Of a stretch of DNA of 29,871 bases, positions 8,317-28,880 are shown in pieces; the first letter of the stretch is position 1, and the number at the start of each line of letters is the position of its first letter. Source of the DNA: a virus. Under the pieces are notes generated by a model. The model saw only the letters and a program-made list of their open reading frames with translations, made no database searches and had not been told where the DNA came from. The DNA lies in IMG/VR virus record IMGVR_UViG_3300032284_000947, positions 1 through 29,871 of that record. One strand, 5' to 3'. A program made the position numbers and the translations under genes.

Positions 8317-8514
8317 TTATTTTTCGCCTAATGTTTTGCGAACATCTTTTTTAATGGCATAGAGAATATCATCTTCATTGCCACACTCTAAGATATCCTC
8401 CAATTGCTCACGATACCGATCATTCTCTGCCCTGAGGCGAACTAATTCTGAAACCGTCACGTCGTCAGCAAGTCTATCTGTTGGTTTGTACGGACCTAAC
8501 CATGTAATGCTCAT
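8317..8514 (-). CDS. Hypothetical coiled-coil protein, 65 residues
   Basis: Start at MSITWLGPYKPTDRLADDVT (ATG 8514), with GAGG upstream overlapping the stop of the 47-residue gene (TGAGGAAATTAAAATG). The open frame upstream of this start is rejected because it overlaps that gene. Residues 23-45 (ELVRLRAENDRYREQLEDIL) form a clear heptad helix. The C-terminus is basic. No function is recognised. Confidence 0.68.
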   Translation of the reverse strand: MSITWLGPYKPTDRLADDVTVSELVRLRAENDRYREQLEDILECGNEDDILYAIKKDVRKTLGEK

Positions 8515-8524
8515 TTTAATTTCC

Positions 8525-8668
8525 TCAATGAATTTTGGACATTGCAACCGAAAGACTTGGACACATGATTGGATCATGCATTACGCCGTAAACGTAATAA
8601 TCAAATCCGTATGATTCTTTAACTGCCCAAATTTCAATGTTGCCTTTTTTGTAAACGATGTAAGCCAT
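8525..8668 (-). CDS. Micro-protein, 47 residues, first gene after promoter cassette A
   Basis: MAYIVYKKGNIEIWAVKESY opens a beta-like, Tyr-rich protein ending CPSLSVAMSKIH. GGAG is 7 bases before the ATG and belongs to the repeated leader described at 8669-8742. Its TGA is part of the ribosome-binding site of the next gene. No family is recognised. The strong site and the dedicated promoter argue that it is a real, well-expressed gene. Confidence 0.72.
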   Translation of the reverse strand: MAYIVYKKGNIEIWAVKESYGFDYYVYGVMHDPIMCPSLSVAMSKIH

Positions 8669-8742
8669 TGTATTTCTCCGTTAGTTGCCCGTTGGCCGTT
8701 GTTGATGGACATAGATATAAACGCATCCACGAATCATGTCAA
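8669..8742 (-). promoter_or_regulatory. Promoter and 5' leader cassette A
   Basis: Reads leftward: -35 TTGACA (8742-8737), 17-base spacer, -10 TATATC (8719-8714), then a leader of about 45 bases with CATCAACAACGG (8707-8696), a GCC-AACG-GGC stem and a CGGAG ribosome-binding site. It shares with cassettes B (10328-10400) and C (9967-10040) the 13-base core GTGGATGCGTTTA (here 8730-8718) and the leader CATCAACAACGG. The TGA of the methyltransferase-like gene is inside the -35 box. It resembles a sigma-70-class promoter; use by host or phage factors is untested. Confidence 0.8.
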
Positions 8743-9329
8743 CCCCATTGTTCAGCCATTGCCCTTGCTATGCCTTGATAGGTCGTGCTGCGAATCTTCC
8801 ACCGGTCCGCTGATGGCGGCAAGTAATGCAAGCGCTCCCGCTGGTTCTTGGGCAACGCCATCATCTCATCCTTGACGTTGTTTGTCGCTACCAATGGTTG
8901 CAGCCCCTTAAGCCACAGGCAGGTCGCTTTCTGCTCCAAGTGCCCAAACATCCACGGCTGCACAACTTGCGTCTGCTTGACCCCTCCGATGCGTTCTTTG
9001 GCATACTTGTGCATGATGGGGTTCTCGACGGCTATCATAGGAATATCAGCATTTAACAAATCCTTGAAGAACGCCGCTCCACCATCAAGTTTGGCCCATC
9101 TCGAAGGGTCTTTGTGTAGCCACGTCACACCGCTATTGGTTAGATACGTGCATGGCGGATGGGCGACCATCAAATCCCAGCCATCGCCAATAATATCAAA
9201 TACATTGCCCTGATAATGCGGTCCAGCTTTGTCGGTTGGCAGCAGATCGCACGACATGGCATCATGCCCCTTGGCAATGAAGGCATCGCGAACTGTTCCG
9301 CTGTATTCACATGCAATAAGAACTTTCAT
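8739..9329 (-). CDS. C5-cytosine methyltransferase-like phage protein
   Basis: 196 residues from MKVLIACEYSGTVRDAF (ATG 9329, AAGGA upstream). The first block resembles the methyltransferase motif I region, HPPCTYLTNSG (57-67) carries the PPC catalytic-loop motif of C5 methyltransferases, and VENP later stands where ENV would normally be. The protein is much shorter than a classical C5 enzyme (about 330-400 residues) and lacks an evident target-recognition domain. Similar short phage proteins are commonly labelled DNA cytosine methyltransferase; whether they methylate DNA is not shown. The frame is open far upstream but overlaps another gene there. Its stop lies in promoter A. Confidence 0.75.
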   Translation of the reverse strand: MKVLIACEYSGTVRDAFIAKGHDAMSCDLLPTDKAGPHYQGNVFDIIGDGWDLMVAHPPCTYLTNSGVTWLHKDPSRWAKLDGGAAFFKDLLNADIPMIAVENPIMHKYAKERIGGVKQTQVVQPWMFGHLEQKATCLWLKGLQPLVATNNVKDEMMALPKNQRERLHYLPPSADRWKIRSTTYQGIARAMAEQWG

Positions 9330-9519
9330 CGTTTGATTTCCTTTTTGTTGTTCCAAAACCTTTATTTGGATTTTTCTTTTTCCCACCAATTTTTCCACCA
9401 GCAGATGCTGTCTCAGATGTGAACTTATTTCTGTTACCTGTTTTGCCACCAAGCGATGAGACTTGTTTACGCTTCTCAGCTGACAGTAGGGCAAACCCTG
9501 TTTTGCTCTTCAATTCCAT
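9307..9519 (-). CDS. Small Gly/Lys-rich basic protein, 70 residues
   Basis: Composition is Lys, Gly, Ser and Thr, with repeated GGK-type turns (SLGGKTGNRNKFTSETASAG followed by GKIGGKKKNPNKGFG). This pattern of SEx(R/K)...GGxxGxxxKFTSE is common in small phage and stress-type KGG proteins. AAGG lies upstream of ATG 9519, though further away than usual. The end overlaps the methyltransferase-like gene by 23 bases. Nucleic-acid binding is a guess from charge. The C-terminus is NDESSYCM. Confidence 0.65.
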   Translation of the reverse strand: MELKSKTGFALLSAEKRKQVSSLGGKTGNRNKFTSETASAGGKIGGKKKNPNKGFGTTKRKSNDESSYCM

Positions 9520-9664
9520 GTTGCATGTAACCTTTATTAATTTGGATGATGGATAGGAATGGGCTGTTAGCCAGAACGATTGGCTGGGCTATGATCATCC
9601 AAGACTTGACGCGGAGACCAGTAGCCCCCGCAATCCGTTTCCGCTTGAACAATGGAATAATCAT
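9476..9664 (-). CDS. Possible small protein, 62 residues
   Basis: ATG 9664 overlaps the TGA of the upstream gene by ATGA, as in proven-looking neighbours. The frame (MIIPLFKRKRIAGATG, then LRVKSWMIIAQPIVLANSPF) is basic, then amphipathic. It fills what would otherwise be a 140-base gap. Against it: no Shine-Dalgarno site and a 44-base overlap with the next gene. It may simply be a leader for the Gly/Lys-rich gene. Confidence 0.35.
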   Translation of the reverse strand: MIIPLFKRKRIAGATGLRVKSWMIIAQPIVLANSPFLSIIQINKGYMQHGIEEQNRVCPTVS

Positions 9665-9966
9665 TGCACGTTGATCTTGAATGTCAGTGAAGGCTTAGGC
9701 GTGGACACTTTGCAGTTCTTGGTCCACCAATCTTCACCCATCTCCTTCTTGACCTTATCGGTGTCAAGGGTCCAACGAACTGAACCTTCTGAGAACACAG
9801 CTTTAAAAAGATTGCCGGAAACTTCTTTGCCGGTAGCGCGTTCGCGAATCACTTCCTCAGCTGCGTTGAACTGAGCAGTAAGTTCCTTGATCTGAGCCTT
9901 GAGGTAAGCTGCCGCGTCGATGACTTCAGCGGTGTTCATTGCGGTGTAATCAGTTGCGTTGCTCAT
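9661..9966 (-). CDS. Phage early protein, 101 residues, first gene after cassette C
   Basis: Start MSNATDYTAMNTAEV (ATG 9966) with AAGGAGA upstream; the much longer open frame upstream runs through cassette C and is rejected. Residues 15-50 are a helical, coiled-coil part (AAYLKAQIKELTAQFNAAEE), followed by a beta hairpin (GNLFKAVFSEGSVRWTLDTD), and KVKKEMGEDWW; the end is TPKPSLTFKINVQ. This order (helical half, then a strand pair containing LDT(D/K) and VKK) is a recurrent phage early gene type of unknown function. It is transcribed from its own promoter. Confidence 0.75.
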   Translation of the reverse strand: MSNATDYTAMNTAEVIDAAAYLKAQIKELTAQFNAAEEVIRERATGKEVSGNLFKAVFSEGSVRWTLDTDKVKKEMGEDWWTKNCKVSTPKPSLTFKINVQ

Positions 9967-10040
9967 TGTAGTCTCCTTGGGTTGGGCCTCAGCCCCGTTG
10001 TTGATGTATCTTGTGTAAACGCATCCACAGCATCGGTCAA
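9967..10040 (-). promoter_or_regulatory. Promoter and 5' leader cassette C
   Basis: Reads leftward: -35-like TTGACC (10040-10035), 17-base spacer containing the core GTGGATGCGTTTA (10028-10016), a weak -10 (TACACA at 10017-10012), then CATCAACAACGG (10006-9995) and a GGGC-TGAG-GCCC stem before AAGGAGA. Compared with A and B the stem bases are swapped but still pair. The stop codon TGA of the preceding 96-residue gene is inside the -35 element. The -10 is the poorest of the three, so strength may be lower. Confidence 0.7.
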
Positions 10041-10327
10041 TAGCCCCGATCAATAATTTCTGAAATAATTGACCAATCCTTCTCGTAGTATTTTGCCTTG
10101 ATCTTCTCGACCACATCCTTGTCGTTGGCCGTCGTGAAGTTGACGATATTGCCGCTGTTGTCTTCGGCATAATTGATGTGGATGTAGGAGAAGTTCCATG
10201 ACGTATCGCCATCAAAGTCAGAGCCGTACTCAACAAGCGCCGTGGCATCGACGAGCACTACCTTGTCGCCAATTGTGTACTCGAAGTTGTCGATTGCAAA
10301 CTCAAAATCACCATCACAAAAAAACAT
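10037..10327 (-). CDS. Hypothetical acidic protein, 96 residues, single-gene cassette
   Basis: ATG 10327 follows CGGAGACGAAA from cassette B; the longer open frame upstream lies in the promoter and is rejected. The protein is acidic and beta-rich (MFFCDGDFEFAIDNFEYTIG, VVLVDATALVEYGSDFDGD), with aromatic residues spaced in strands, and ends in a helical KDVVEKIKAKYYEKDW. No family is recognised. It is a stand-alone unit: promoter B in front, promoter C directly behind, with the stop codon forming part of promoter C. Confidence 0.72.
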   Translation of the reverse strand: MFFCDGDFEFAIDNFEYTIGDKVVLVDATALVEYGSDFDGDTSWNFSYIHINYAEDNSGNIVNFTTANDKDVVEKIKAKYYEKDWSIISEIIDRGY

Positions 10328-10400
10328 TTTCGTCTCCGTTGGTTGCCCGTGGGCCGTTGTTGATGAACATAGTATTAAACGCATCCACAGATGATGTCAA
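10328..10400 (-). promoter_or_regulatory. Promoter and 5' leader cassette B
   Basis: Reads leftward: -35 TTGACA (10400-10395), 17-base spacer with the core GTGGATGCGTTTA (10388-10376), -10-like TAATAC (10377-10372), then CATCAACAACGG (10365-10354), a GCC-CACG-GGC stem and CGGAG before ATG 10327. This copy is closest to A: both have GGGCAAC-AACGGAG in the leader. The stop codon TGA of the preceding 65-residue gene is inside the -35 box. Confidence 0.8.
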
Positions 10401-10594
10401 CAGCCTATTTCGTCAGAACATAAATTCATTATTTCCATCATGTCCGCTAAATGATGAACACGCTTATCAGACAGCACTAACACGCGCCAAAGATCAAACA
10501 CTGGCGACCACTGGCACCAAGCAATCTCTTTGCCATCATGAAGCACGGTAAACATAGTCTCGCTTTGGTATTTTATATCAAATTCGCTGCTCAT
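10397..10594 (-). CDS. Hypothetical protein, 65 residues
   Basis: Begins MSSEFDIKYQSETMFTVLHD and has two Trp close together (IAWCQWSPVFDLWRVLVL). The first ATG is used, with AGGG upstream and a 17-base overlap with the end of the primase gene. The frame ends GC-TGA, where the TGA is also in promoter B. Short beta-strand-like lines suggest a small globular fold. Function unknown. Confidence 0.65.
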   Translation of the reverse strand: MSSEFDIKYQSETMFTVLHDGKEIAWCQWSPVFDLWRVLVLSDKRVHHLADMMEIMNLCSDEIGC

Positions 10595-11510: not shown

Positions 11511-12966
11511 TTTTCTCACGTTGTTTTGCCTTAGTGATGTTTAAATGCTTGATCCAAGCTGATGTAGCCTGTGACGGCATGATTGGGAATGGCCTACTAG
11601 CCGGCCCCACACCAAACCTCTGACGGTAAGCGTGATAAGCCCAACCATCTTTGTATCCCTTGATTTGAGCGTGTCCAAGCAATTCTGCGTAGAATGTTGA
11701 TTTGGCAGCCGCTGGCCAGTCTTTGGCAATCTGCTTTTTGTTTGGCGTTAGTTCTAACAATTCACCCTCTTCTGTATTTATCTTTGATACGTACTCAGCT
11801 TTAAAGCCACAAACTGGGCATTCCCGTGTTTTTGGGGGGCGAACGAACGTGCATTTTGGACAGGGTTTCGGTAGCGGCGTTTCTTTTTCAAACTTACTGG
11901 CCGTTCTTTTATCGCCCGAATCGAGTGTCTCATGGTGAATGTCCGTCACAAATCCAAGCCGGATTGTTGTGTCACTGTGGTCTAATATCAGGCAATTATC
12001 CTTGCCTTCAGCCGTTCTAAGTCCACGGCCAATGATCTGTGTATACAAAATCTCAGAGCGTGTAGGCCGCGCCAGAATGATGCACCGCACATCCCAATCA
12101 ATGCCAGTTGTGAGAACACCGACATTGCAGACAATCTTCAAATCACCGTCTGCAAATTGTTTGGCGATTTCCTGACGTTCCAACAGTTCAGTAAAAGAAT
12201 CCATATACCCTGTTGGAACTCCAGCAGCCAAAAACTCTTGCTGTATCTTTTTAGCGTGAGCACGATCCACACCAAAGCATAGCGTTGGACGATCCTCACC
12301 CTTCTCAAACCACGTTGAGACAATATCGGCCACAAGAGTACCCTCCTGCATGGCGGCAGATAATCCTTTAGTCTCATAGTCACCCTTAACGATCTTAACA
12401 TCCGTCAAGTCTGGGTGGGCTGGAGCAAACACACGGAACCCTGATAAATATCCAGCATCAATCAATCGCTGCGTTGTCGTTCCAACAATCAAATCATCAT
12501 ACAATTTACCCATGCCTCTGGCCCACGGAGTTGCCGTTAATCCAATAACAGGTATTCGATTTTCGGCCAGTTTCTCAAACCACTTACCGTAGAACTTAAA
12601 CAGGACGTGGGCCTCGTCGATAATGACCAAGCCACAATCTGGCACATTACGCCGCATCAATGTCTGGATCGAAGCAACCTGAACCTGAGCCGTGTGATCC
12701 GTGCGCTCGTGATAGGCTTGCATGACACCGATATCAAAGATGCCATCCCGCTCAAATGACTTAACTGTTTGGTCAACGAGGCTGATTGCTGGAACGCAGA
12801 AGATAACTCTGCGCCCCCGTTCGAGTGCCATGTTGATGATATTACCCGCGATGGCAGTCTTACCGCCACCCGTTGGAACTTGCAGCACCGGCCTTTGTTT
12901 ACCAGATCGAAGTGACTGGCGGAGAGCCGTAATCGCATCCTCTTGATAATCACGCAGTTTGTGCAT
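11464..12966 (-). CDS. Superfamily 2 DEAH-box helicase
   Basis: 500 residues from MHKLRDYQEDAI (ATG 12966). Motifs in order: Q-like LRDYQ at 4-8, Walker A VPTGGGKTA (30-38), motif II LVIIDEAH (113-120), motif III GLTATPWARG (142-151), motif VI QIIGRGLRTAEG in the second RecA-like domain. A zinc-ribbon-like segment follows (CPKCTFVRPPKTRECPVC), then a C-terminal tail of unknown role. This is the layout of phage UvsW/SSL2-type helicases that unwind or remodel branched DNA. It overlaps both the DnaA-like gene upstream (17 bases) and the primase downstream (47 bases). The wider open frame to 13032 is not favoured. Confidence 0.92.
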   Translation of the reverse strand: MHKLRDYQEDAITALRQSLRSGKQRPVLQVPTGGGKTAIAGNIINMALERGRRVIFCVPAISLVDQTVKSFERDGIFDIGVMQAYHERTDHTAQVQVASIQTLMRRNVPDCGLVIIDEAHVLFKFYGKWFEKLAENRIPVIGLTATPWARGMGKLYDDLIVGTTTQRLIDAGYLSGFRVFAPAHPDLTDVKIVKGDYETKGLSAAMQEGTLVADIVSTWFEKGEDRPTLCFGVDRAHAKKIQQEFLAAGVPTGYMDSFTELLERQEIAKQFADGDLKIVCNVGVLTTGIDWDVRCIILARPTRSEILYTQIIGRGLRTAEGKDNCLILDHSDTTIRLGFVTDIHHETLDSGDKRTASKFEKETPLPKPCPKCTFVRPPKTRECPVCGFKAEYVSKINTEEGELLELTPNKKQIAKDWPAAAKSTFYAELLGHAQIKGYKDGWAYHAYRQRFGVGPASRPFPIMPSQATSAWIKHLNITKAKQREKNELRNSNSPITRQVA

Positions 12967-13372
12967 TGTCTCTCTCGTAACATTTAACGTCGTAAAGGAT
13001 TGTTTTGTGATCACGTTGCAGCCATCGACCAATTTGGCTAGCTGAGTATTTCAAATCTTTAACGGCAAAGTAGGCAACTTCACGACGAATTTTGACAACT
13101 TCGGGTTTATGATTCGGGACGATTAGAGAGTTAGGATCGACACTATGTTTTTGAGCAATTTTAATCAGTAGCTTCGAGAAATTGTTATTGGGGATATGGT
13201 CCACCTTGAACACAACTTCAACGGCTTCCTCAACACGGGAGGATACGACCTTTTGAACTTCTGGTGGCCTAATTGGGACAAGTCCCGCTGACTTGCCAAG
13301 TCCGCCCAATCTTTTTCTAACTGCCAAGTAATGTGCACGTAATTCATTGTAGTTTCGGAAGTCCTGTGTCAT
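12950..13372 (-). CDS. DnaA domain IV-like DNA-binding protein
   Basis: 140 residues. Residues about 76-134 resemble the C-terminal DNA-binding domain of DnaA: a first helix with REVAYFAVKDL, a turn with YSASQIGRWLQRDHKTILYDV, where the RDH(K/T)T(I/V)L stretch corresponds to the DnaA box-recognition helix-turn-helix. There is no AAA+ domain, so it cannot act alone as an ATP-driven initiator. The N-terminal half is basic and of unknown fold. Next to primase and helicase, it might mark the phage origin or recruit host DnaA partners; this is inference. Confidence 0.75.
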   Translation of the reverse strand: MTQDFRNYNELRAHYLAVRKRLGGLGKSAGLVPIRPPEVQKVVSSRVEEAVEVVFKVDHIPNNNFSKLLIKIAQKHSVDPNSLIVPNHKPEVVKIRREVAYFAVKDLKYSASQIGRWLQRDHKTILYDVKCYERDNAQTA

Positions 13373-13718
13373 CTGCCTCGCCCATTGCGTAAATCGTTAC
13401 AACCATTGGCTCTGATGATTCTTTGGCCCACTCAGCAGCCAAAGCCATGCACTGCGAGTCGTCTTCTACGATGTGGAGCTTAACAAGTAGGTCACTGGTG
13501 GCCTTCAAGATATTATCCAAATCACGACGTTTGTTGGTTTTTCTCGCCCTAATGTGAAGGGCATACTCGCCATCAATTGTCTGCTTAGTCTGTTGCTTCA
13601 CCATCCAACCAGCCTCTTCAAGCCAGTCTTTGTAGAGCTTTGTCTTGTACATTCTGGAGCCAGTTATGCGCCAAAGAGCATTAGTTGACGGGGCCAGTGG
13701 AAGAGTTAATTGTATCAT
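13344..13718 (-). CDS. rusA: RusA-type Holliday junction resolvase
   Basis: 124 residues, the family's usual size. RusA cuts four-way junctions during recombination and before packaging. The N-terminus MIQLTLPLAPSTNALWRITG is typical (a strand then PSTN), and the catalytic Asp cluster is visible at D66 and D68 (KRRDLDNILKATSDLL) and at D86-D87 (VEDDSQ). The C-terminal tail is short. ATG 13718 shares its first base with the TAA of the regulator gene (TAATG). It lies in the minus-strand replication array, whereas the annealing protein it would serve lies on the plus strand. Confidence 0.9.
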   Translation of the reverse strand: MIQLTLPLAPSTNALWRITGSRMYKTKLYKDWLEEAGWMVKQQTKQTIDGEYALHIRARKTNKRRDLDNILKATSDLLVKLHIVEDDSQCMALAAEWAKESSEPMVVTIYAMGEADDTGLPKLQ

Positions 13719-13903
13719 TACTTTTTACCAAAAAAATCTTCCGGTTTCAGATAACCCCCTGATGCTGCAATGATTTTCTTTGCTGCACTGATTAGCGGGT
13801 ATTGTTTATATCGTTCAATTCGAGACAAGGATGCCATCGAAATTCCAGTTTGAAAAGACAAATCGTCAAGTGTGACAAAGTGTTCTTTTCGAAACATTCT
13901 CAT
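13718..13903 (-). CDS. XRE-family helix-turn-helix regulator
   Basis: 61 residues from MRMFRKEHFVTLDDLSFQTG; the start at 13903 gives an ATGA overlap with the preceding gene and puts the helix-turn-helix right at the N-terminus as usual. The recognition part is TGISMASLSRIERYKQYPLI, the standard XRE pattern (S-x-S-x-I-E-R). Longer frames from 13984, 13993 or GTG 14023 would overlap the conserved upstream gene by 85-124 bases. A candidate operator lies about 230 bases upstream (14132-14151). It could set the balance between the two divergent operons; no integrase or lysogeny genes were seen. Confidence 0.85.
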   Translation of the reverse strand: MRMFRKEHFVTLDDLSFQTGISMASLSRIERYKQYPLISAAKKIIAASGGYLKPEDFFGKK

Positions 13904-14121
13904 GGGGTGGGTAGGCGTATATTCGAGATCGATTTCCGGCCCGCCGTCGTATTTGGCTGCATCCGAATCAATGGGTTTTCCCATGTCCAACATTCTCCAG
14001 TTCCGTCTTGAAAACAAACCCACATCAAATGGTGTTCAAACCCATAGTCAATCAGGAAGTGCGCCATAGCACTGCCCTTCGGGGTGAATACAGGTAGCGG
14101 GGGATCGAGCCGTTCAATCAT
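13900..14121 (-). CDS. Conserved phage protein of the MIERL/GECWTW type, 73 residues
   Basis: Starts MIERLDPPLPVFTPKGSAMA (ATG 14121, AAGGA 8 bases upstream) and continues FLIDYGFEHHLMWVCFQDGT then GECWTWENPLIRMQPN. This run (PPLPV-TPKG, DYG-EHHLLWV, GECWTW-NP) is a conserved phage early protein I have seen in many proteobacterial phages, with no known function. It is the first gene of the long minus-strand array. A longer frame to about 14205 would overlap the divergent Gp157-like gene and is rejected. Confidence 0.82.
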   Translation of the reverse strand: MIERLDPPLPVFTPKGSAMAHFLIDYGFEHHLMWVCFQDGTGECWTWENPLIRMQPNTTAGRKSISNIRLPTP

Positions 14122-14187
14122 TTGACAATCCTTGCATTGAGTGCAATCAATAACATGCCGAAAACAAACATACAAGGGTGTTAACCA
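14122..14187. promoter_or_regulatory. Divergent intergenic region with overlapping inverted repeats
   Basis: These 66 bases separate the start of the minus-strand replication array (14121) and the plus-strand recombination operon (14188). Two overlapping inverted repeats are present: TTGCA-TTGAG-TGCAA (14132-14146) and ATTGA-GTGCAA-TCAAT (14136-14151). They look like an operator for a dimeric regulator such as the XRE protein nearby. TTGACA (14122-14127) is a possible rightward -35, but no matching -10 at 16-18 bases was found. The plus-strand gene has AAGGGTG before its ATG. Confidence 0.55.
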
Positions 14188-17560: not shown

Positions 17561-19851
17561 CGTTTGGCTGCATCCAACGCTTGAACAACTGCGTCGTCGG
17601 GTAATGAAAGCATATGCTCAGTCTTGCTTGCCAACATAACCTGACGGCGCTTCAAATCACGAAGAAGTGATTCTGCCGTAAGACCACCGACCTTACCGCC
17701 AGATTTGTGACCAACACGACCGCCATTAGCACGTTGCTCTGGCTGAGCCGGATTCATTGCTGGGTTAGATGCAATGTATTTCGTTAAGCGTGTTTCAAGA
17801 TTGCTAAAAATCTTTTTATTCAAGTCATCTTTATTTAAAGCATCTCTTAATTTGGCCTGAACAGCGGGATTTGGATCAACAGCCATACGAAGCATAGCTG
17901 AAGCACGTTGATTAGCCAGACCACGAATAGCCATAGCTCCGCCAGCAATAGGAATTGCTAATCCAGCCGCAGCTAATGTGTAACCTAAAGTGTATGGATC
18001 AGTAGCGTGAGCCGCAACTTCTGGAATTGTTGAAATTGCATGTCCAGCAGCTTGCACTGCTCCAAATCCAGCCGCGCTTCCGGCAGTGGATGCAGCCAAA
18101 AGTTGGCCAATAGACATATTTGATTTAGTAGAAAGACCCAATGTCCCTGTTAATTCACGAACACGGGCCATTTTAAAGGTACTATTAAGATCATCAAAGG
18201 TATTATCGCCTAATGCTGACCTTAATCGTCCTTCAGTTACGGAATCTATGTCCTTAAATGCACTAGCTGCTACATCTGGATTTTCTTTAACAAATGAAAG
18301 CAATCCAGTTTTAAAAGCATTTTTTTCCGTATCGCTATATCCACCCTGCTTTGGGGCAGCAGTTAGGTAATTCAATTGATTGCCGATATCTTCTGCATTT
18401 CCCTTTGGCTTTGTAATCATGCCAAAGAAATCACTACCCGCATCAAAGGCATTGTCAGCCTTAATATATCGTTGAGCAGTTCCTAATGCCTCACCATATG
18501 CAGGGAACATACTTTTAAGAGTATCAGTAAATTTTTTTGTCATCGCTTGAGTTGATGCAGCTGTATCAGACTCACCCGGTGTTGCTGCCTGTTTACGACC
18601 CTCACCATTCAAGCCACGCTTAACATAATCCCAATATTCAAGGTCTGGTGGTTCTCCGCCAGATGGCGAGCGCAAAACATATAAGCCAGAATCAGGGTCT
18701 TTTACGAATGGAGTTGGTCCAAGAATGCCATCTTTTACCCGCTCATTATTAGCCCACTGAATTGCAGACTGACCTTCTTTCGTATTAATTACAGTGTTAA
18801 AGTATGGGTTCCAAACATTATCTGCCCCTTCAGAGTTAAAAGCAGCATTATATGCAGGAGCAGCAGCACTACGATATGCTTTATTTGCAGCGTCGCGTTC
18901 AGCAGCCGCATCAATCGTTTTACCAGCAGCATCATCAATTTGAGAACCAATAATAGTGGGATTATTGGCAATCCTTTTGTTAACTACGCTATTTAATGCC
19001 AAAGCATTTGGGTCATTCTCAACTTGACCCTCTGCCTTCAAAATAAGCGGTTTAACACCTTGAACGTCAGCCAAAGAAACATTTTTATCGCCACGATCTA
19101 AAGCATCTAAATACGCTTCTACCGACAACTGACGCTGCGATGGAAGAATTGAAGGTTGAGTTGCCGCACCAGACACAATTTTTTTAGCCATTACGGATTC
19201 TGGATCAAAGATGCCAGCAATCTTACTTCCAACGGCCTTAACACCTTTGGCACCAAAAGTTAATGCTGAGGATATCGGAGTCGCAGCCATACCAGCCAAA
19301 GTACTCGTACCAAGGCGTGATGCAGTTTCCTCTGGAGTTTCACCCGGAATCGCCTCAGAAGAAGCAGCAGATGTTAATCCGCTTTCGGTCATACGTCCTA
19401 AATATGGAGCCACTTTGGAAATTAACCGTGGTGCATTTTCAGTTAAAGATGCCAAACCACGTTCAATACCAATTTCAGGCTGCAAAATAGATGCCGCAGC
19501 TGGAACGCCACTCATAAATGAATATGTCATAGGTGCAGCAGCATATTTTGCCCGTTCAATCGCCTCACGTTGCGCTTGAAGGTCCGTATACCGATTACTG
19601 AAATCCTGCCCTTGACCAGAGCCAGCAGCAGCCATAGCAGCATCCAAAGCCTTATTATAAATAGGGCCAACAATAGGAACTTGTCCAAATTGAAATGGTT
19701 GATAAGCCGCAACTTGACCCATAGGGCCAGTCGCAGCTAACTGTTTTTGCATCTCAGGAAGTTTTGACTGAACTTTAGCCTCAAAATCCTGAGTTCCTTC
19801 TTCTGCGACAGGATGAAAAGATTCGTCAGCAACAGGAACTAAATTGCTCAT
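17557..19851 (-). CDS. Putative internal virion/DNA ejection protein, 764 residues
   Basis: Last gene of the late operon, ATGA-coupled to the 1359-residue gene. The N-terminus is Gln/Ala-rich helix, then several Ala/Gly helices. Residues 570-660 hold hydrophobic stretches (AASTAGSAAGFGAVQAAGHA and LGYTLAAAGLAIPIAGGAMA) that could enter membrane, which fits a protein ejected ahead of the DNA. Near the C-terminus is RANGGRVGHKSGGKVGG, then a helix (LLRDLKRRQVMLASKT) and LPDDAVVQALDAAK. In podoviruses, proteins with an ANGGRV-(K/H)xxGG turn and this closing helix occur at the end of ejection proteins. The exact role is inference from position, size and composition. Confidence 0.65.
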   Translation of the reverse strand: MSNLVPVADESFHPVAEEGTQDFEAKVQSKLPEMQKQLAATGPMGQVAAYQPFQFGQVPIVGPIYNKALDAAMAAAGSGQGQDFSNRYTDLQAQREAIERAKYAAAPMTYSFMSGVPAAASILQPEIGIERGLASLTENAPRLISKVAPYLGRMTESGLTSAASSEAIPGETPEETASRLGTSTLAGMAATPISSALTFGAKGVKAVGSKIAGIFDPESVMAKKIVSGAATQPSILPSQRQLSVEAYLDALDRGDKNVSLADVQGVKPLILKAEGQVENDPNALALNSVVNKRIANNPTIIGSQIDDAAGKTIDAAAERDAANKAYRSAAAPAYNAAFNSEGADNVWNPYFNTVINTKEGQSAIQWANNERVKDGILGPTPFVKDPDSGLYVLRSPSGGEPPDLEYWDYVKRGLNGEGRKQAATPGESDTAASTQAMTKKFTDTLKSMFPAYGEALGTAQRYIKADNAFDAGSDFFGMITKPKGNAEDIGNQLNYLTAAPKQGGYSDTEKNAFKTGLLSFVKENPDVAASAFKDIDSVTEGRLRSALGDNTFDDLNSTFKMARVRELTGTLGLSTKSNMSIGQLLAASTAGSAAGFGAVQAAGHAISTIPEVAAHATDPYTLGYTLAAAGLAIPIAGGAMAIRGLANQRASAMLRMAVDPNPAVQAKLRDALNKDDLNKKIFSNLETRLTKYIASNPAMNPAQPEQRANGGRVGHKSGGKVGGLTAESLLRDLKRRQVMLASKTEHMLSLPDDAVVQALDAAKR

Positions 19852-22800
19852 GGAGAAGTTACCTCTTTACCTGTTGACCAATCGAAACGCTTGCCATCTT
19901 GAACTGCTTGATTATTGGATGGATCAAAAGAGAAACTACCTTTTCCGGCCATCCAAGGCTGGCGTTGCACTGGCTTAAATTCTGCCGGTGTGGCCAAAGT
20001 CTCAGAACCAACAGTTCTCTTATATGGCAAATTATTGATATCTTTTGGCGTCATTCCAGCAAAATAATCAATCTGATCAACTGCCTTTTGATCATAAACC
20101 TTTTGGGAATGATCAGGATCACGGGTCCAATCTGCAATAAACTTGGCCTGTGTTTTTCTTTGTGCTGGATTAGGATTATTAATATTATCAATCCAATCAC
20201 GCGCTAAGTCTTCCTGACGCAACTGATTACTGCGGTCTTGAGTAATAACTTGATATTTTGCTGCTGGTGCCTTTACTGGCTCCGCAACTGACATCAAACC
20301 TTCCTTTAATTGCATATTAGTGGTACGGCCACCTGCATTTGCTGCAACGGTTTTAAAAGCATTGACAATAGCATCTTTGGCGGCAGTGTCAGCCAGCCCT
20401 TGGAAACCATCACTATCAACATCAACGCCAGCCTTCTTTAGTGCATTATCAAGGACTGGAGTTCCTTTAATAATACCAATAGCATCTGCCTTAAATCCAG
20501 TGGTCCGGTTCATATCAATTTTTTGATATGCGTTAATCAGACCATTTTGAACCTGTTGGACAGCTGGAAGCTCTTCCAAAAATTTAGAATTTTCGGTTGT
20601 AAACTTGGTTGCATCTGCATTCTGAGCATCAGCCATTGCTTTTTGAGCAGCTGCCGATAGATTTTTTTGAACAATGGATTGCGGAAATCCATATGTTTTA
20701 CCATCAGATAACAATGTCTGCTGGCTTCCATTAGCAATGCCTTCAGCCTTATCAGATAAGGACTTCCACGCCTCGAATGCTTTGGTTGCGTCCTGTCCCA
20801 TATCCTGAAGTTTTTGATAACGCTTCCATGCCACGTCAGCTTGATTCCTAAAGTAAGTAGGCGTTCCAGATGGATGAATATCTGGATATGGATTTACATC
20901 TCCAGTCTGTGAAGCATCCGTAGCAACTGCTCCAGCAGTATCAGGAACTGCTGCTTGCGCCACTTTAATTGGCTGAGGAGCGGTTTGATCTTCTGTAGGT
21001 TGATTGCTTGGAACAACTGCCTGAATACCACCATCATCAGGCAGCATTGATTGGCCGCCGATTGCTTGCGCCTGACGTGGCTTTGAAGTTCTAAGTGCAT
21101 TCATTACGGCAGGAGAAAACCCAGCAGCCTGAATAATTGCATTTAATTGTGCATTATATTCTTCTGGCGTTAATGGTGGCGCTCCAGAACCCGGCGTAGG
21201 AGCCATAATAGCATTACCCTGCGAATCAACGTCAGAATGATATTTAGATATAAATTTCGTATAGATATCAAGCGCTTGACCACGATTTTGAATATCAAGT
21301 TCTTGCTGCCTGAGCGGGATTCCAGCTTCACCAACGCCGACTTGACGGCTTTGAATTGCCTGTTCAGCCAACGCCTTCTGAGTCTCATAATCAATATTGC
21401 GCTGTTTAGCATATGTATTTGCGCCGATTAGACCACCCTGACCAATGGCCTGAGTGAGGAATGGCGACGGGCTTGCAGCCATGCCAAATCCAGCAGCCAT
21501 AATAGCCTGACGAGCATCGTCGGAAAGGGGTTGTCCCTTATTAAACAAATTACCAATCAGACCGGGCTGATCGCTTGAGCTTGGCAAACTGGAAAGACCC
21601 TTAGATATAGATGATCCTAAGTTTCCCAAAAAATCTTGATTTGCTGAAATTGTTTGATCGGGATTTGCTGAACTTCCATCAGCATGTGGGACGCGGGGGA
21701 CTAAGCCACCAGTTGCATAGGAATTGGTAAATGGACCCATGCCCTCATAGCCGCCAGCACCAGCAACGTAATTTGGATTATTAGCACTAATGCCAAATGT
21801 TTGACCGTACTTATTAAGAGCAGCTTTACCAAAGCCAGCAATGCCAGATGTATCAAATGCTGGTGCTTCGTATGGTTGAGCGTGAGGAAGGCCCATACCG
21901 CCACCCCCTTGAATGCTAATATGCGGAATATATGAACCAAGCGTAATTTTGGCTAATGAAGCCATTTCCTCAGCCAATGGATCATCGGCGTAAGGAGTTT
22001 CACCAAACTGCCTCTGGCTTTGACCAATGCCACCATAAGCATAAGGGCGTCGTTCCATGCTTTCAGGAACAAGACCGCCCATCGAAGAACCGCCAGTTGC
22101 GAAGTGACCACGATCCGCCGCCCCACTCGTTGCATCGGCATAATTAACCATCCGCAACCCACTTTCTGTCCTATGAACAGCATTAGGATTGCGCTTTTCA
22201 ACTTCCTGAGCACTCAAACCAATATTGGTTTTTGGATCGCCCTTATAGTTAAACTTGTAAATATTCTGGCCATCAAACGTCTTGCCAATTGGTTCCATAT
22301 TATCTTTGGAACGCTCATCAGACATAGTTAATAGCGATGTACCAAGGCCAAGTGCGGCATTCATTGGATTTGGAGCCGGGGCAGTAGCAGTGCTTGTTCC
22401 ACCTTGACCAGCGCCAAGGCCGGAAGCCATGTTGGCAAGACTACCCAGTGTTTGCCAAGGATAAGCCTGTTGCTGAGCATACTGTTGATATGCAGCGGCG
22501 TTTTGAGCCTGTTGAACTGCATACGGAATAGCGCCAGCCGCCGACAACTGTTGAGCACCAGTTTCGCCAGCCGTTTGAGCGCCAGCCCCTAACTGTCCAT
22601 ATTGAGCACCAGCGGCCAATGACATTGGAACCGTTTGAAGCGCCGCGTTTTGAGCCGATGTTCCAAGCTGACCATATTGAGCACCAAGTGCGCCAAGTTG
22701 TTGAGCGCCCTGCATGGCAGCATTTTGAGCGCCAGTTCCAAGTTGACCGTATAGTGATGCTTGCTGCTGAGCCAATGGCATACCCTGAAGTGCCGCGTTC

Positions 22801-23927
22801 TGAGCCGCAGTACCTAATGCACCATATTGACCAGCCGCACCCATTCCTTGGCCAGCAATGTTTGCAATATTAGCAGCGCCCTGTTGCTGAGCTTGACCGG
22901 CATTAATAAGAGCCTGTTGAGCCTGTCCACCAAGTTGACCATACTGATTAGCAAGGCCGCCAATCTGTCCATACATAGAACCCTGCTGCCCAGCGATACC
23001 CGCCTGAGCGCCAAGGCCAGACAAATAATTCTGTGCCGCCGATTGATAGCCAGTGTTAGCCATCTGGCCAAGCGTTTGACCCATAGCAAGGTTCTGCTGG
23101 CCCATAAGAGCCGCCTGAGCTACGTTGCCACGATCCCCACCGAAAGCACCCTGCTGGATTGCGCTTCCCTGAAGTTGCTGTTGCTGCTGTTGATTTTGGT
23201 TCTGCATCATTGCAGCCGTTGAACCCATTGCATTCTGCAAATAAGGATTCATGTAACCCTGAACACCAGCCGCATAATTCGGGGCATTGTAACCCTGAGA
23301 AATACCACCCAATCCGCCGATAGTCTGCCCAAGCCCACCAGCCGCGCCCATCGTACCCATCTGAGCGGCCTGATAACTTGGCTGAGCTGCATATGTTGAT
23401 TGCATCAGCGGCCTCATGCCAGCTTGAGCAGCGCCCGCAGCTTCTTGATATTGAGGCATAGTTCCAGCCGCAAAAGTTTGAGCACCCTGAAAATAAGGTT
23501 GCGCCACTCCCAAGCCTTGGTTCAAAATATCTTGAGCTTGCCCAGCCGCTCCATACCCCGCCTGATAAGCTGGCTGAGCCGCATTCATGTTCATTCCAGC
23601 TTGCTGTGCAGCGGCACCCGTCAGATCAGTAGCCGCGCCATAATAAGGCTGGGCAACATTTTGGCCTTGAGCAATTTGGTTCATGGCAGTATTCGTCGCG
23701 CCATAACCAGCCTGATATCCGGGCTGTGCGGCCTGAGAATATTGCTGAGCTTGATTGATGCCAGCTTGCTGAGTAGCATTGATATCAGGAACTAGCTGCC
23801 CCTGATATTGCTGGTAAGGTTGCTGTTGAAGGGTTTTGCCTTGCTGGGTTATGTAATTATACATATCCTGAACGGCCTGTGGAGGCGCACTCGTGGACGT
23901 AGTGGTGGCTGAACCCTTGGAACCCAT
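19848..23927 (-). CDS. Giant Gln/Ala/Gly-rich virion protein with internal S74-like motif
   Basis: 1359 residues. Residues 1-530 are low complexity, with YQAGYGA-type repeats, a poly-Gln run (about 244-252), and repeats of YGQLG followed by AQNAA-type lines (about 328-447). At 535-600 lies MSDERSKDNMEPIGKTFDGQ, IGLSAQEVEKRNPNAV, VNYADAT: the pattern of the peptidase S74 intramolecular chaperone of phage tail spikes, here far from the C-terminus. Residues 620-760 are Gly-rich loops with ATGG turns. The last 600 residues are helical, with LSDDARQAIMAAGFGMAASP and a long coiled-coil stretch. Most likely an internal or ejection-type virion protein. GAGG precedes ATG 23927. Confidence 0.7.
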   Translation of the reverse strand: MGSKGSATTTSTSAPPQAVQDMYNYITQQGKTLQQQPYQQYQGQLVPDINATQQAGINQAQQYSQAAQPGYQAGYGATNTAMNQIAQGQNVAQPYYGAATDLTGAAAQQAGMNMNAAQPAYQAGYGAAGQAQDILNQGLGVAQPYFQGAQTFAAGTMPQYQEAAGAAQAGMRPLMQSTYAAQPSYQAAQMGTMGAAGGLGQTIGGLGGISQGYNAPNYAAGVQGYMNPYLQNAMGSTAAMMQNQNQQQQQQLQGSAIQQGAFGGDRGNVAQAALMGQQNLAMGQTLGQMANTGYQSAAQNYLSGLGAQAGIAGQQGSMYGQIGGLANQYGQLGGQAQQALINAGQAQQQGAANIANIAGQGMGAAGQYGALGTAAQNAALQGMPLAQQQASLYGQLGTGAQNAAMQGAQQLGALGAQYGQLGTSAQNAALQTVPMSLAAGAQYGQLGAGAQTAGETGAQQLSAAGAIPYAVQQAQNAAAYQQYAQQQAYPWQTLGSLANMASGLGAGQGGTSTATAPAPNPMNAALGLGTSLLTMSDERSKDNMEPIGKTFDGQNIYKFNYKGDPKTNIGLSAQEVEKRNPNAVHRTESGLRMVNYADATSGAADRGHFATGGSSMGGLVPESMERRPYAYGGIGQSQRQFGETPYADDPLAEEMASLAKITLGSYIPHISIQGGGGMGLPHAQPYEAPAFDTSGIAGFGKAALNKYGQTFGISANNPNYVAGAGGYEGMGPFTNSYATGGLVPRVPHADGSSANPDQTISANQDFLGNLGSSISKGLSSLPSSSDQPGLIGNLFNKGQPLSDDARQAIMAAGFGMAASPSPFLTQAIGQGGLIGANTYAKQRNIDYETQKALAEQAIQSRQVGVGEAGIPLRQQELDIQNRGQALDIYTKFISKYHSDVDSQGNAIMAPTPGSGAPPLTPEEYNAQLNAIIQAAGFSPAVMNALRTSKPRQAQAIGGQSMLPDDGGIQAVVPSNQPTEDQTAPQPIKVAQAAVPDTAGAVATDASQTGDVNPYPDIHPSGTPTYFRNQADVAWKRYQKLQDMGQDATKAFEAWKSLSDKAEGIANGSQQTLLSDGKTYGFPQSIVQKNLSAAAQKAMADAQNADATKFTTENSKFLEELPAVQQVQNGLINAYQKIDMNRTTGFKADAIGIIKGTPVLDNALKKAGVDVDSDGFQGLADTAAKDAIVNAFKTVAANAGGRTTNMQLKEGLMSVAEPVKAPAAKYQVITQDRSNQLRQEDLARDWIDNINNPNPAQRKTQAKFIADWTRDPDHSQKVYDQKAVDQIDYFAGMTPKDINNLPYKRTVGSETLATPAEFKPVQRQPWMAGKGSFSFDPSNNQAVQDGKRFDWSTGKEVTSP
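22580..22960 (-). repeat. Tandem YGQLG / AQNAA coding repeats
   Basis: Within the 1359-residue gene, several copies of a 25-30-residue unit encode YGQLG, a Gly/Thr/Ser-Ala-Gln pair and a (M/L)QG-type end. On the plus strand this shows as repeated TTGACCATATTGAGCACC-like and GCGTTTTGAGC-like stretches. Copies are diverged in DNA but regular in protein. They are separated by AAQ- and GALGAQ-type linkers. Slippage or recombination between copies could change protein length. Confidence 0.7.
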
Positions 23928-27517: not shown

Positions 27518-28228
27518 TTAACCCCTTGAAGGTGTTGCAACAGGAGATTGAGAATAAGAAGTCCAAGCTGCATCTTGATATTTTTTACGATTTTCTTCGG
27601 AAAGAGCAGACCTAAGAAGAACCTGATACTGACTTTCGTAGCTTTGTGCCATCTGAGGATCGTCTGATTGTCGGCCAAAGTTACGTTGATATGCAGAAAT
27701 ATAGATCATAGAAGCCATAATCATCATATCTGGCAAATTAGTAGAAATATATGTTTGTGTGTTTGTGGCTGATAATGGAGCAGAACGAACTGTGCCAGTC
27801 AATCGAACTTGATAAGCCAAATCTGGGATAGGGCCAATCGTCATGATCTGAGATGTGAAGCCAGTCGTAGCCGCATCGCCGCCGTATTCAGCATAAAACT
27901 GTGGCAATCCAGTAGTTGAACCGCCACCATAAACATTCTGAATGTATTCTTTTGTCACTGGCAGCAACGGGGAAGATACACCCGATCCAGTGATAACTTC
28001 CATCGTCTCAGTCGTTACAAATTGTGTCTGTGGAATTGTAAACGTACCGCTATTAGCCGTCAGCGAGTAAGCCGTCGTGCTAATTTGGGTGGAAAGAAAA
28101 TCAAGGTCACGCTGCATACGCAATTCAGCATATGAGATCATTGATGGTAAAATAATCTGAAAATTAATGTCTGTTGTCGGAACAACTGACATCGTAGCAA
28201 TAGTTTGCACAAAGGAATTATAGTCCAC
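27518..28228 (-). CDS. Head-to-tail adaptor protein, GTG start
   Basis: 236 residues from GTG 28228 (MDYNSFVQTIATMSVV). GGGAGG lies 5 bases upstream, inside the end of the homing endonuclease gene. ILPSMISYAELRMQRDLDFL is the amphipathic helix of phage adaptors that sits on the portal; beta lines follow (TIPQTQFVTTETMEVITGSG, GLPQFYAEYGG), and a helix with YISAYQRNFGRQSDDPQMAQ closes the domain, continuing to ENRKKYQDAAW. This is the usual build of a podovirus neck adaptor (P22 gp4-like role). It is followed by the hub gene after 3 bases. Confidence 0.75.
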   Translation of the reverse strand: MDYNSFVQTIATMSVVPTTDINFQIILPSMISYAELRMQRDLDFLSTQISTTAYSLTANSGTFTIPQTQFVTTETMEVITGSGVSSPLLPVTKEYIQNVYGGGSTTGLPQFYAEYGGDAATTGFTSQIMTIGPIPDLAYQVRLTGTVRSAPLSATNTQTYISTNLPDMMIMASMIYISAYQRNFGRQSDDPQMAQSYESQYQVLLRSALSEENRKKYQDAAWTSYSQSPVATPSRG

Positions 28229-28880
28229 TTAAGCCTCCCTTTTGCGCCAAACGACGCTTTTCAGACCAAGGACGGCCTTTGTGAGAATTAGACATTTTTA
28301 ACTTTGTCTCATCAGAAAAAGATTTTCTTACCCTATTTCTTTGAAACTTAGACATCTTAGCACGAGTTTCTTCTGAATGGGATTTATGTTTTTTACCTAT
28401 ATTTGATTCGGAGATTTTTCTTTTATGTTCTGCTGAAAGAACGCGACCTTTTCCCGCAGCACCAATTTTTGCACGATGCTCTTCGCTATGCGGGCCAATC
28501 CTTCTTTTCGAAGCAGAAAAAGACAGATTTTTACGATGTTCGTCGGAAAATTTTTTTCCTTTTGCAGATTCAGACATTTTTTTACGAATTTCTTCAGATG
28601 GATTTGATATACCTTCACCACCATCTGTCATATTTGAAAGATTTTCACGACCATAAAAAGCAATTCTATCTCGTTCAACAAGAAAAGCAGATTCCTCAGT
28701 TAACTTTGAAACAACAATTCTTACGTCAACAGAAAATCCCATTGCCGTTAATTTAGATTGAATTGCTTTATGATGTGGATTCCGATTGAACATCACCCAA
28801 GCACGACGCGCAGTTCCTTTACCCACATAAAAGCAGGTATCGGTATCTGGACGCCAATGCTCATAGATGTAATAATCCAT
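28218..28880 (-). CDS. GIY-YIG homing endonuclease with NUMOD3 repeats
   Basis: 220 residues. Residues 1-90 are a GIY-YIG nuclease: YYIYEHWRPDTDTCFYVGKG in place of GIY...YIG, then TARRAW, with E69 in LVERDRIAFYG and LSNMTDGGEG. From residue 92 come about six short repeats of the NUMOD3 type (SEEIRKKMSESAKGKKFSDE, SEEHRAKIGAAGKGR, SAEHKRKISESNIGKKHKSH, SDETKLKMSNSHKGRPWSE), which bind DNA. The gene is AT- and Lys-rich unlike its neighbours and stands between endolysin and adaptor, as expected of a free-standing homing gene (Seg type). Its TAA overlaps the adaptor start by 11 bases. Confidence 0.9.
   Translation of the reverse strand: MDYYIYEHWRPDTDTCFYVGKGTARRAWVMFNRNPHHKAIQSKLTAMGFSVDVRIVVSKLTEESAFLVERDRIAFYGRENLSNMTDGGEGISNPSEEIRKKMSESAKGKKFSDEHRKNLSFSASKRRIGPHSEEHRAKIGAAGKGRVLSAEHKRKISESNIGKKHKSHSEETRAKMSKFQRNRVRKSFSDETKLKMSNSHKGRPWSEKRRLAQKGGLSGL

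Follow-up and report, generated by a model that had tools for sequence, protein, structure and literature searches.

The stretch of DNA analysed here, which we call the window, comprises all 29,871 nucleotides of the IMG/VR virus record IMGVR_UViG_3300032284_000947. Between positions 8,525 and 10,594 of its minus strand, small genes are interspersed with three copies (E1, E2, and E3) of one promoter-leader element. The genes and features of this region are given below; bit scores refer to R1, a covariance model of the leader.

10594-10397, minus: gene c10, which precedes E1 and has its own TGA within the TTGAC of E1
10400-10328, minus: element E1, 73 nt (TTGACA, 17-nt spacer, TAATAC, leader, and Shine-Dalgarno sequence)
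10376-10388, minus: core GTGGATGCGTTTA of E1, proposed operator of the group A phages on the grounds of invariance and group specificity
10328-10365, minus: leader of E1 and predicted 5' UTR, hairpin GCC-CACG-GGC (from covariation), 51.7 bits
10327-10037, minus: gene c11, cassette 1, 96 aa, function unknown; a distant homologue takes its place in the relative G004
10040-9967, minus: element E2, 74 nt (TTGACC, 17-nt spacer, TACACA, leader, and Shine-Dalgarno sequence)
10016-10028, minus: core of E2, the same 13-mer GTGGATGCGTTTA
9967-10006, minus: leader of E2 and predicted 5' UTR, hairpin GGGC-TGAG-GCCC (from the fold), 63.6 bits
9966-9661, minus: gene c4, first of cassette 2, 101 aa, function unknown; has its own element in most phages, at varied loci
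9519-9307, minus: small basic gene of cassette 2, c17-like, 70 aa
9329-8739, minus: DNA methyltransferase gene of cassette 2 (phrog_757, E = 1.9e-57)
8742-8669, minus: element E3, 74 nt (TTGACA, 17-nt spacer, TATATC, leader, and Shine-Dalgarno sequence)
8718-8730, minus: core of E3, the same 13-mer GTGGATGCGTTTA
8669-8707, minus: leader of E3 and predicted 5' UTR, hairpin GCC-AACG-GGC (weak, not the minimum-energy fold), 45.6 bits
8668-8525, minus: first gene behind E3, 47 aa

For the c4 protein, a structure model (pLDDT 77, pTM 0.54) gave no significant fold match. Elsewhere in the window, the protein encoded at 28218-28880, which starts with MDYYIYEHWRPDTDTCFYVGKGTARRAW and lies among structural genes, resembles a GIY-YIG endonuclease by eye, and imperfect repeats, several of them at multiples of three bases (e.g., 75 and 150), occupy 22551-23751 within a 1359-aa frame (19848-23927).

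Read directly, E1, E2, and E3 each contain TTGAC, the 13-mer GTGGATGCGTTTA, CATCAACAACGG, and a Shine-Dalgarno sequence, and lead into ATG. The 13-mer has exactly three copies in the 29,871-base record, each within an element; with up to two mismatches the window holds 4 matches against 0.84 expected, and with up to three mismatches core plus leader is found twice against 0.00 expected (E2, one base shorter, is missed). The three elements, already recognized in an earlier reading made from the sequence only, are thus real, exact, and far beyond chance. The spacer of 17 given in that reading also stands when measured from TTGACA, with TAATAC (E1), TACACA (E2), and TATATC (E3) as -10-like boxes, but the common sequence does not end with CATCAACAACGG; all three continue with a conserved hairpin of 3-4 bp and AAC(C)nAACGGAG. 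A consensus promoter scan returned 8 matches versus 4.9 expected from shuffling, and E1 is the only one of the three elements to pass (as TTGACA-18-AATACT, 10/12). On the minus strand, no terminator-like site was found immediately before any of the elements.

The sequence-only reading had further proposed that the -35 box contains the stop codon of the preceding gene. This holds for all three window copies, where the TGA of c10, of c11, and of the methyltransferase gene ending at 8739 is the TGA of TTGAC. It does not hold as a rule: an upstream frame could be identified for 38 distinct elements, and its stop is the TGA of TTGAC (+1) in 15 of them, falls at another position within the element in 7, and precedes the element in 16, counts made with a mechanical ORF finder in which a few calls may be wrong. 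We therefore read the overlap as a reflection of genes running into the element, not as a design rule. Genes entering the promoter would end at their first in-frame stop, which would frequently be the TGA of TTGAC, since it comes first for one frame.

Searching with core plus leader, as that reading had suggested, retrieved four other IMG/VR contigs. More distant phages, with the same leader and a different spacer core, were reached through a relative of the 101-aa gene c4. The family was collected with a pattern of TTGAC and leader that leaves out the core, together with R1; this yielded elements in about 20 IMG/VR contigs besides the window, and a looser pattern added about 15 more contigs with leader variants such as CATCAGCAACGG. 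Within a phage, all copies lie close together and on one strand. Although the collection pattern let TTGAC precede the leader by 27-41 nt, it does so by 33-35 nt in 41 of 45 distinct elements.

Several matches were set aside. Contigs L045 and L129 fit the DNA pattern but carry the GGGATAGGAGCCC of cluster K and were excluded from the family; four matches to TTGAC-N7-core in cellular genomes correspond roughly to the chance expectation for 18 fixed bases in 257 Gb; and a leader match in Erwinia phage Y2 lies inside an annotated gene. Among phage isolates, BLAST with the leader gave weak or chance matches only, tblastn with the c4 protein found none, and R1 gave a single 16.7-bit match in Roseobacter phage CRP-901 and none in Manatee Spring phage. 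Rfam covariance models had no match in 8500-10500 of the window at E up to 1, and a literature search with the letters of the leader listed no phage paper among the first 10 of 59 matches. The best terminase matches listed are to unclassified or alphaproteobacterial phages at no more than 43% identity, none of them T4-like; they point, at this low identity, to alphaproteobacterial phages.

The leader, about 40 bases long, begins with C or T followed by ATCAACAACGG and continues with the hairpin, AACCAACGGAG, and ATG. Across 30 leaders the hairpin positions are paired in all 76 cells (100%) and show 13 two-sided changes, and at two of the three hairpin pairs G-C, C-G, and A-U replace one another. 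The resulting covariation score was reached by 0 of 500 shuffles, and many of the loops (TACG, TGAG, TGCG, CACG) fit YNMG. Single leaders fold no more stably than their shuffles, so that the evidence for structure is covariation and not energy. The hairpin lies between promoter and Shine-Dalgarno sequence and lacks a U-tract. As TTGAC precedes the leader by 33-35 nt, a sigma-70 start would fall at or beside the first leader bases, and the leader is thus probably the whole 5' UTR.

Our main finding, which goes beyond the sequence-only reading, is that the core is specific to groups of phages while the leader is common to the family. The first 12 nt of the leader are equally conserved within and between phages (0.82 vs 0.82). 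The promoter spacer, by comparison, agrees at 11.3 of 19 positions within a phage versus 7.0 of 19 between groups (p = 5e-5, phage labels permuted). In group A, to which the window belongs, the core is GTGGATGCGTTTA; in group B it is AAAGACTGCC, in group H AAGCTATGCC, and in group J ACGAAATTACTTCG, with an inverted copy across the -35. Among the operator-like cores of other groups is TCTGCAATGTGCAGA, present twice; group N has two TCTGCA-TGCAGA palindromes, and the core of a leader-variant group is GGGCC.G.GGCCC. The copies of group D have no clear common core, and no inverted repeat is visible in that of group A, palindromes being confined to some of the other groups. Taken together, a spacer core that is common within a phage and differs between groups looks like the operator of a phage-specific regulator.

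Cores could also be alike within a phage through recent duplication or gene conversion, in which case no regulator would be needed, and the clustering of each phage's copies on one strand is in keeping with this. Other observations speak against it. The 18 positions of TTGAC plus core are invariant in the 13 copies that the window and four close relatives carry between them, a description and not an independent test, given that these very copies served to define the block; in the three window copies, all 12 remaining positions among the first 30 are variable. Moreover, the core of phage H remains the same although the -35 or the leader differs, and cores recur outside elements, in arrays or as inverted copies. 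We regard copying as a very unlikely explanation.

Which protein might bind the core? Two proteins conserved near the elements are candidates, and only candidates, for the regulator:

12950-13372, minus: DnaA domain IV-like DNA-binding protein (PF08299, E = 1e-6)
13718-13984, minus: Cro/C1-type HTH protein (PF01381, E = 3.5e-4, below the curated cut-off)

Next to the latter, 13985-14187 is a divergent intergenic region between the Cro/C1-type gene and a rightward gene block; it looks like a regulatory switch region, and the core is absent from it.

Outside the elements, the core of phages H and M also forms arrays with a period of 21-24 bp that adjoin terS (0 of 100 shuffles), and, in group E phages, four elements have a perfect DnaA box, TTATCCACA, 23-35 bp before their TTGAC:

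L079 13706-13949: core array of phage M, directly beside terS
L084 12203-12383: core array of phage H, directly beside terS
L077 3485 and 4407, L085 7291 and 8217: perfect TTATCCACA boxes of group E phages

No core array was found in the window or its near relatives, and in phage K the core-like sites that cluster between terS and terL do not exceed chance. The arrays of H and M are a possible replication origin or packaging site. The arrays and DnaA boxes, along with a DnaA_C-like protein found in 18 of the loci searched, could mean that a replication initiator (e.g., a DnaA domain IV-like protein) has its site in the core and that the promoters are tied to replication instead of to an immunity repressor. 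The window core contains GTGGAT, part of the reverse-complement DnaA box, which would favor this. On the other hand, an array by terS would also fit a packaging site, the cores of most groups are unlike a DnaA box, and phages B1 and B2 have the same core in spite of DnaA-like proteins with only 45% identity. All in all, an initiator site seems to us improbable.

Comparison of close relatives suggests what happens to the genes themselves. Between the window and G001/G003, homology ends at 9329 and restarts at 8743; between the window and G002 it ends at 9344 and restarts at 8742, in the TTGAC of E3. Between these breakpoints lies the methyltransferase gene of the window, an unrelated methyltransferase gene in G001/G003, and almost nothing in G002. 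Around E3, identity is at chance level upstream (0.48-0.55), rises to 0.92-0.97 within the element, and reaches 0.97-1.00 in the gene. At E1, the window and G004 show the reverse, identity falling from 0.85 upstream to 0.51 in the gene, with homology ending at the start codon; across the E3 region, including the 47-aa gene, blastn detects no homology between the two. Similar switches at element edges are seen in the phage pairs B1/B2 and E1/E2.

Two cases reveal where a gene may have come from. Contig L065 (4089 bases) combines an A-type upstream flank and core with an E-type c4 gene behind them, the encoded protein being 74% identical to that of phage E1 and 29% to that of the window; we take it to be a natural recombinant on this comparison. 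In G004, the c11 protein is 47% identical to that of B2 versus 31% to that of the window, while its neighbors are 85-97% identical to the window's. Both cases support the view that genes were exchanged at the elements while the resident core stayed in place. Position varies too: the loci at which the element-plus-gene pairs of c4, c58, and c68 sit differ between phages. Relatives mostly did not show the same genes without the element, a finding that would speak against such units: c4 follows its own element, but it is the second gene of its cassette in group H.

The elements could then be mobile recombination cassettes like the PeSLs of T4, the repeat being kept mainly as an island of homology and regulation being a by-product. 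That homology changes abruptly at the edges of elements in several pairs of close relatives fits this, as do the varied loci of c4, c58, and c68 with their elements. Breaks are, however, common at other gene boundaries too, and the excess at elements is not significant (11/21 element vs 38/116 other boundaries, p = 0.07, with non-independent pairs). Of the original proposal, units that bound exchangeable genes are thus borne out by the homology switches, and a focus of recombination on the repeats is not. Furthermore, a pure island of homology would need neither a group-specific core beside a universal leader nor two-sided compensatory changes in a hairpin. We therefore think it unlikely that homology is what the repeat is mainly kept for.

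We favor instead, as the likely reading, a two-part expression unit made up of a group-specific operator promoter and a constant predicted 5' UTR; its transcription start, operator and regulator, leader function, and recombination route we infer from sequence. The first part would be a sigma-70-like promoter (TTGAC, a 17-base spacer, and a weak -10) with a putative group operator in the spacer, so that one phage-encoded regulator could bind every copy of the core and switch the small-gene cassettes together. In the second part, transcription would start at or next to CATCAACAACGG and pass through the 3-4 bp hairpin and AACCAACGGAG to ATG; the most likely role of the leader is to stabilize the 5' end of the mRNA and to leave the ribosome site accessible. 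Since the leader is common to the family and the operator is resident, recombination with its end point at the start codon or in the leader would bring the acquired gene under the control of the recipient.

Such a unit would work like two known systems, the PeSLs of T4-like phages and the SAS/ESAS of cluster K mycobacteriophages, but by its sequence features belongs to neither. PeSLs are reportedly called promoter-terminator motifs in the title of Comeau 2014 and are said to feature also in Arbiol 2010. They are described as a repeated early-type promoter plus stem-loop in gene-dense regions with gene shuffling (PMC4503421). The repeated promoter, here at a fixed TTGAC spacing (41/45, in silico), and the shuffling of genes between relatives are shared, and in these respects the T4 link drawn in the sequence-only reading stands. 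A terminator hairpin and a T4-like carrier are not shared: here the hairpin lies in the 5' UTR before the ribosome site and has no U-tract, which sets it apart from a promoter-terminator composite, and the genes that were read do not mark the phages as T4-like.

The SAS of cluster K is a constant sequence that contains the Shine-Dalgarno site and lies, in one orientation, just before the starts of many small genes; the consensus of the upstream part of SAS/ESAS varies by subcluster, with proteins of different specificity as its proposed binding partners, and upstream stop codons can fall in SAS (PMC3203893). A constant sequence with a Shine-Dalgarno site and a group-specific motif upstream are what we find here as well. 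The 13-bp SAS, GGGATAGGAGCCC, is nevertheless absent and unrelated to our leader of CATCAACAACGG, hairpin, and AACCAACGGAG; ESAS consists of 17-bp imperfect inverted repeats upstream, whereas our core sits in the spacer of a TTGAC promoter and has no such repeat in group A; and the leader hairpin covaries here, while little support for an RNA hairpin was reported for SAS (PMC3203893). Cluster A stoperators resemble the cores as one-orientation repeats with a subgroup-specific consensus, there matched to the repressor; they number up to about 30 per genome, most of them outside promoters, and their repressor is known (PMC6550527), whereas the window has three exact sites, all in promoters, and candidate HTH and DnaA-like proteins only. 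The 26-bp repeat before 8 gene starts in Citrobacter phage Mordin likewise is start associated and includes GGAG, but its sequence is another, and the announcement reports no promoter or structure (PMC4611695).

A further step is tentative, and we would sooner doubt it than rely on it: the unit may be a plug-in regulatory interface, in which the family-wide 5' UTR lets genes move while each group keeps its own operator, and in those members where the site is arrayed by terS, one protein may tie replication or packaging to the expression of exchangeable genes. Small genes are constantly exchanged among phages, and how a newcomer enters resident control is a long-standing question. With one constant leader, many group cores, and recombinants like L065 that pair a foreign gene with a resident core, this family offers a natural comparison. 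The leader can also serve as a sequence tag in searches of uncultivated phages for such accessory genes, the functions of which are mostly unknown. In these phages, a new gene is apparently plugged in under the phage's own control by way of a common leader and a group-specific promoter.
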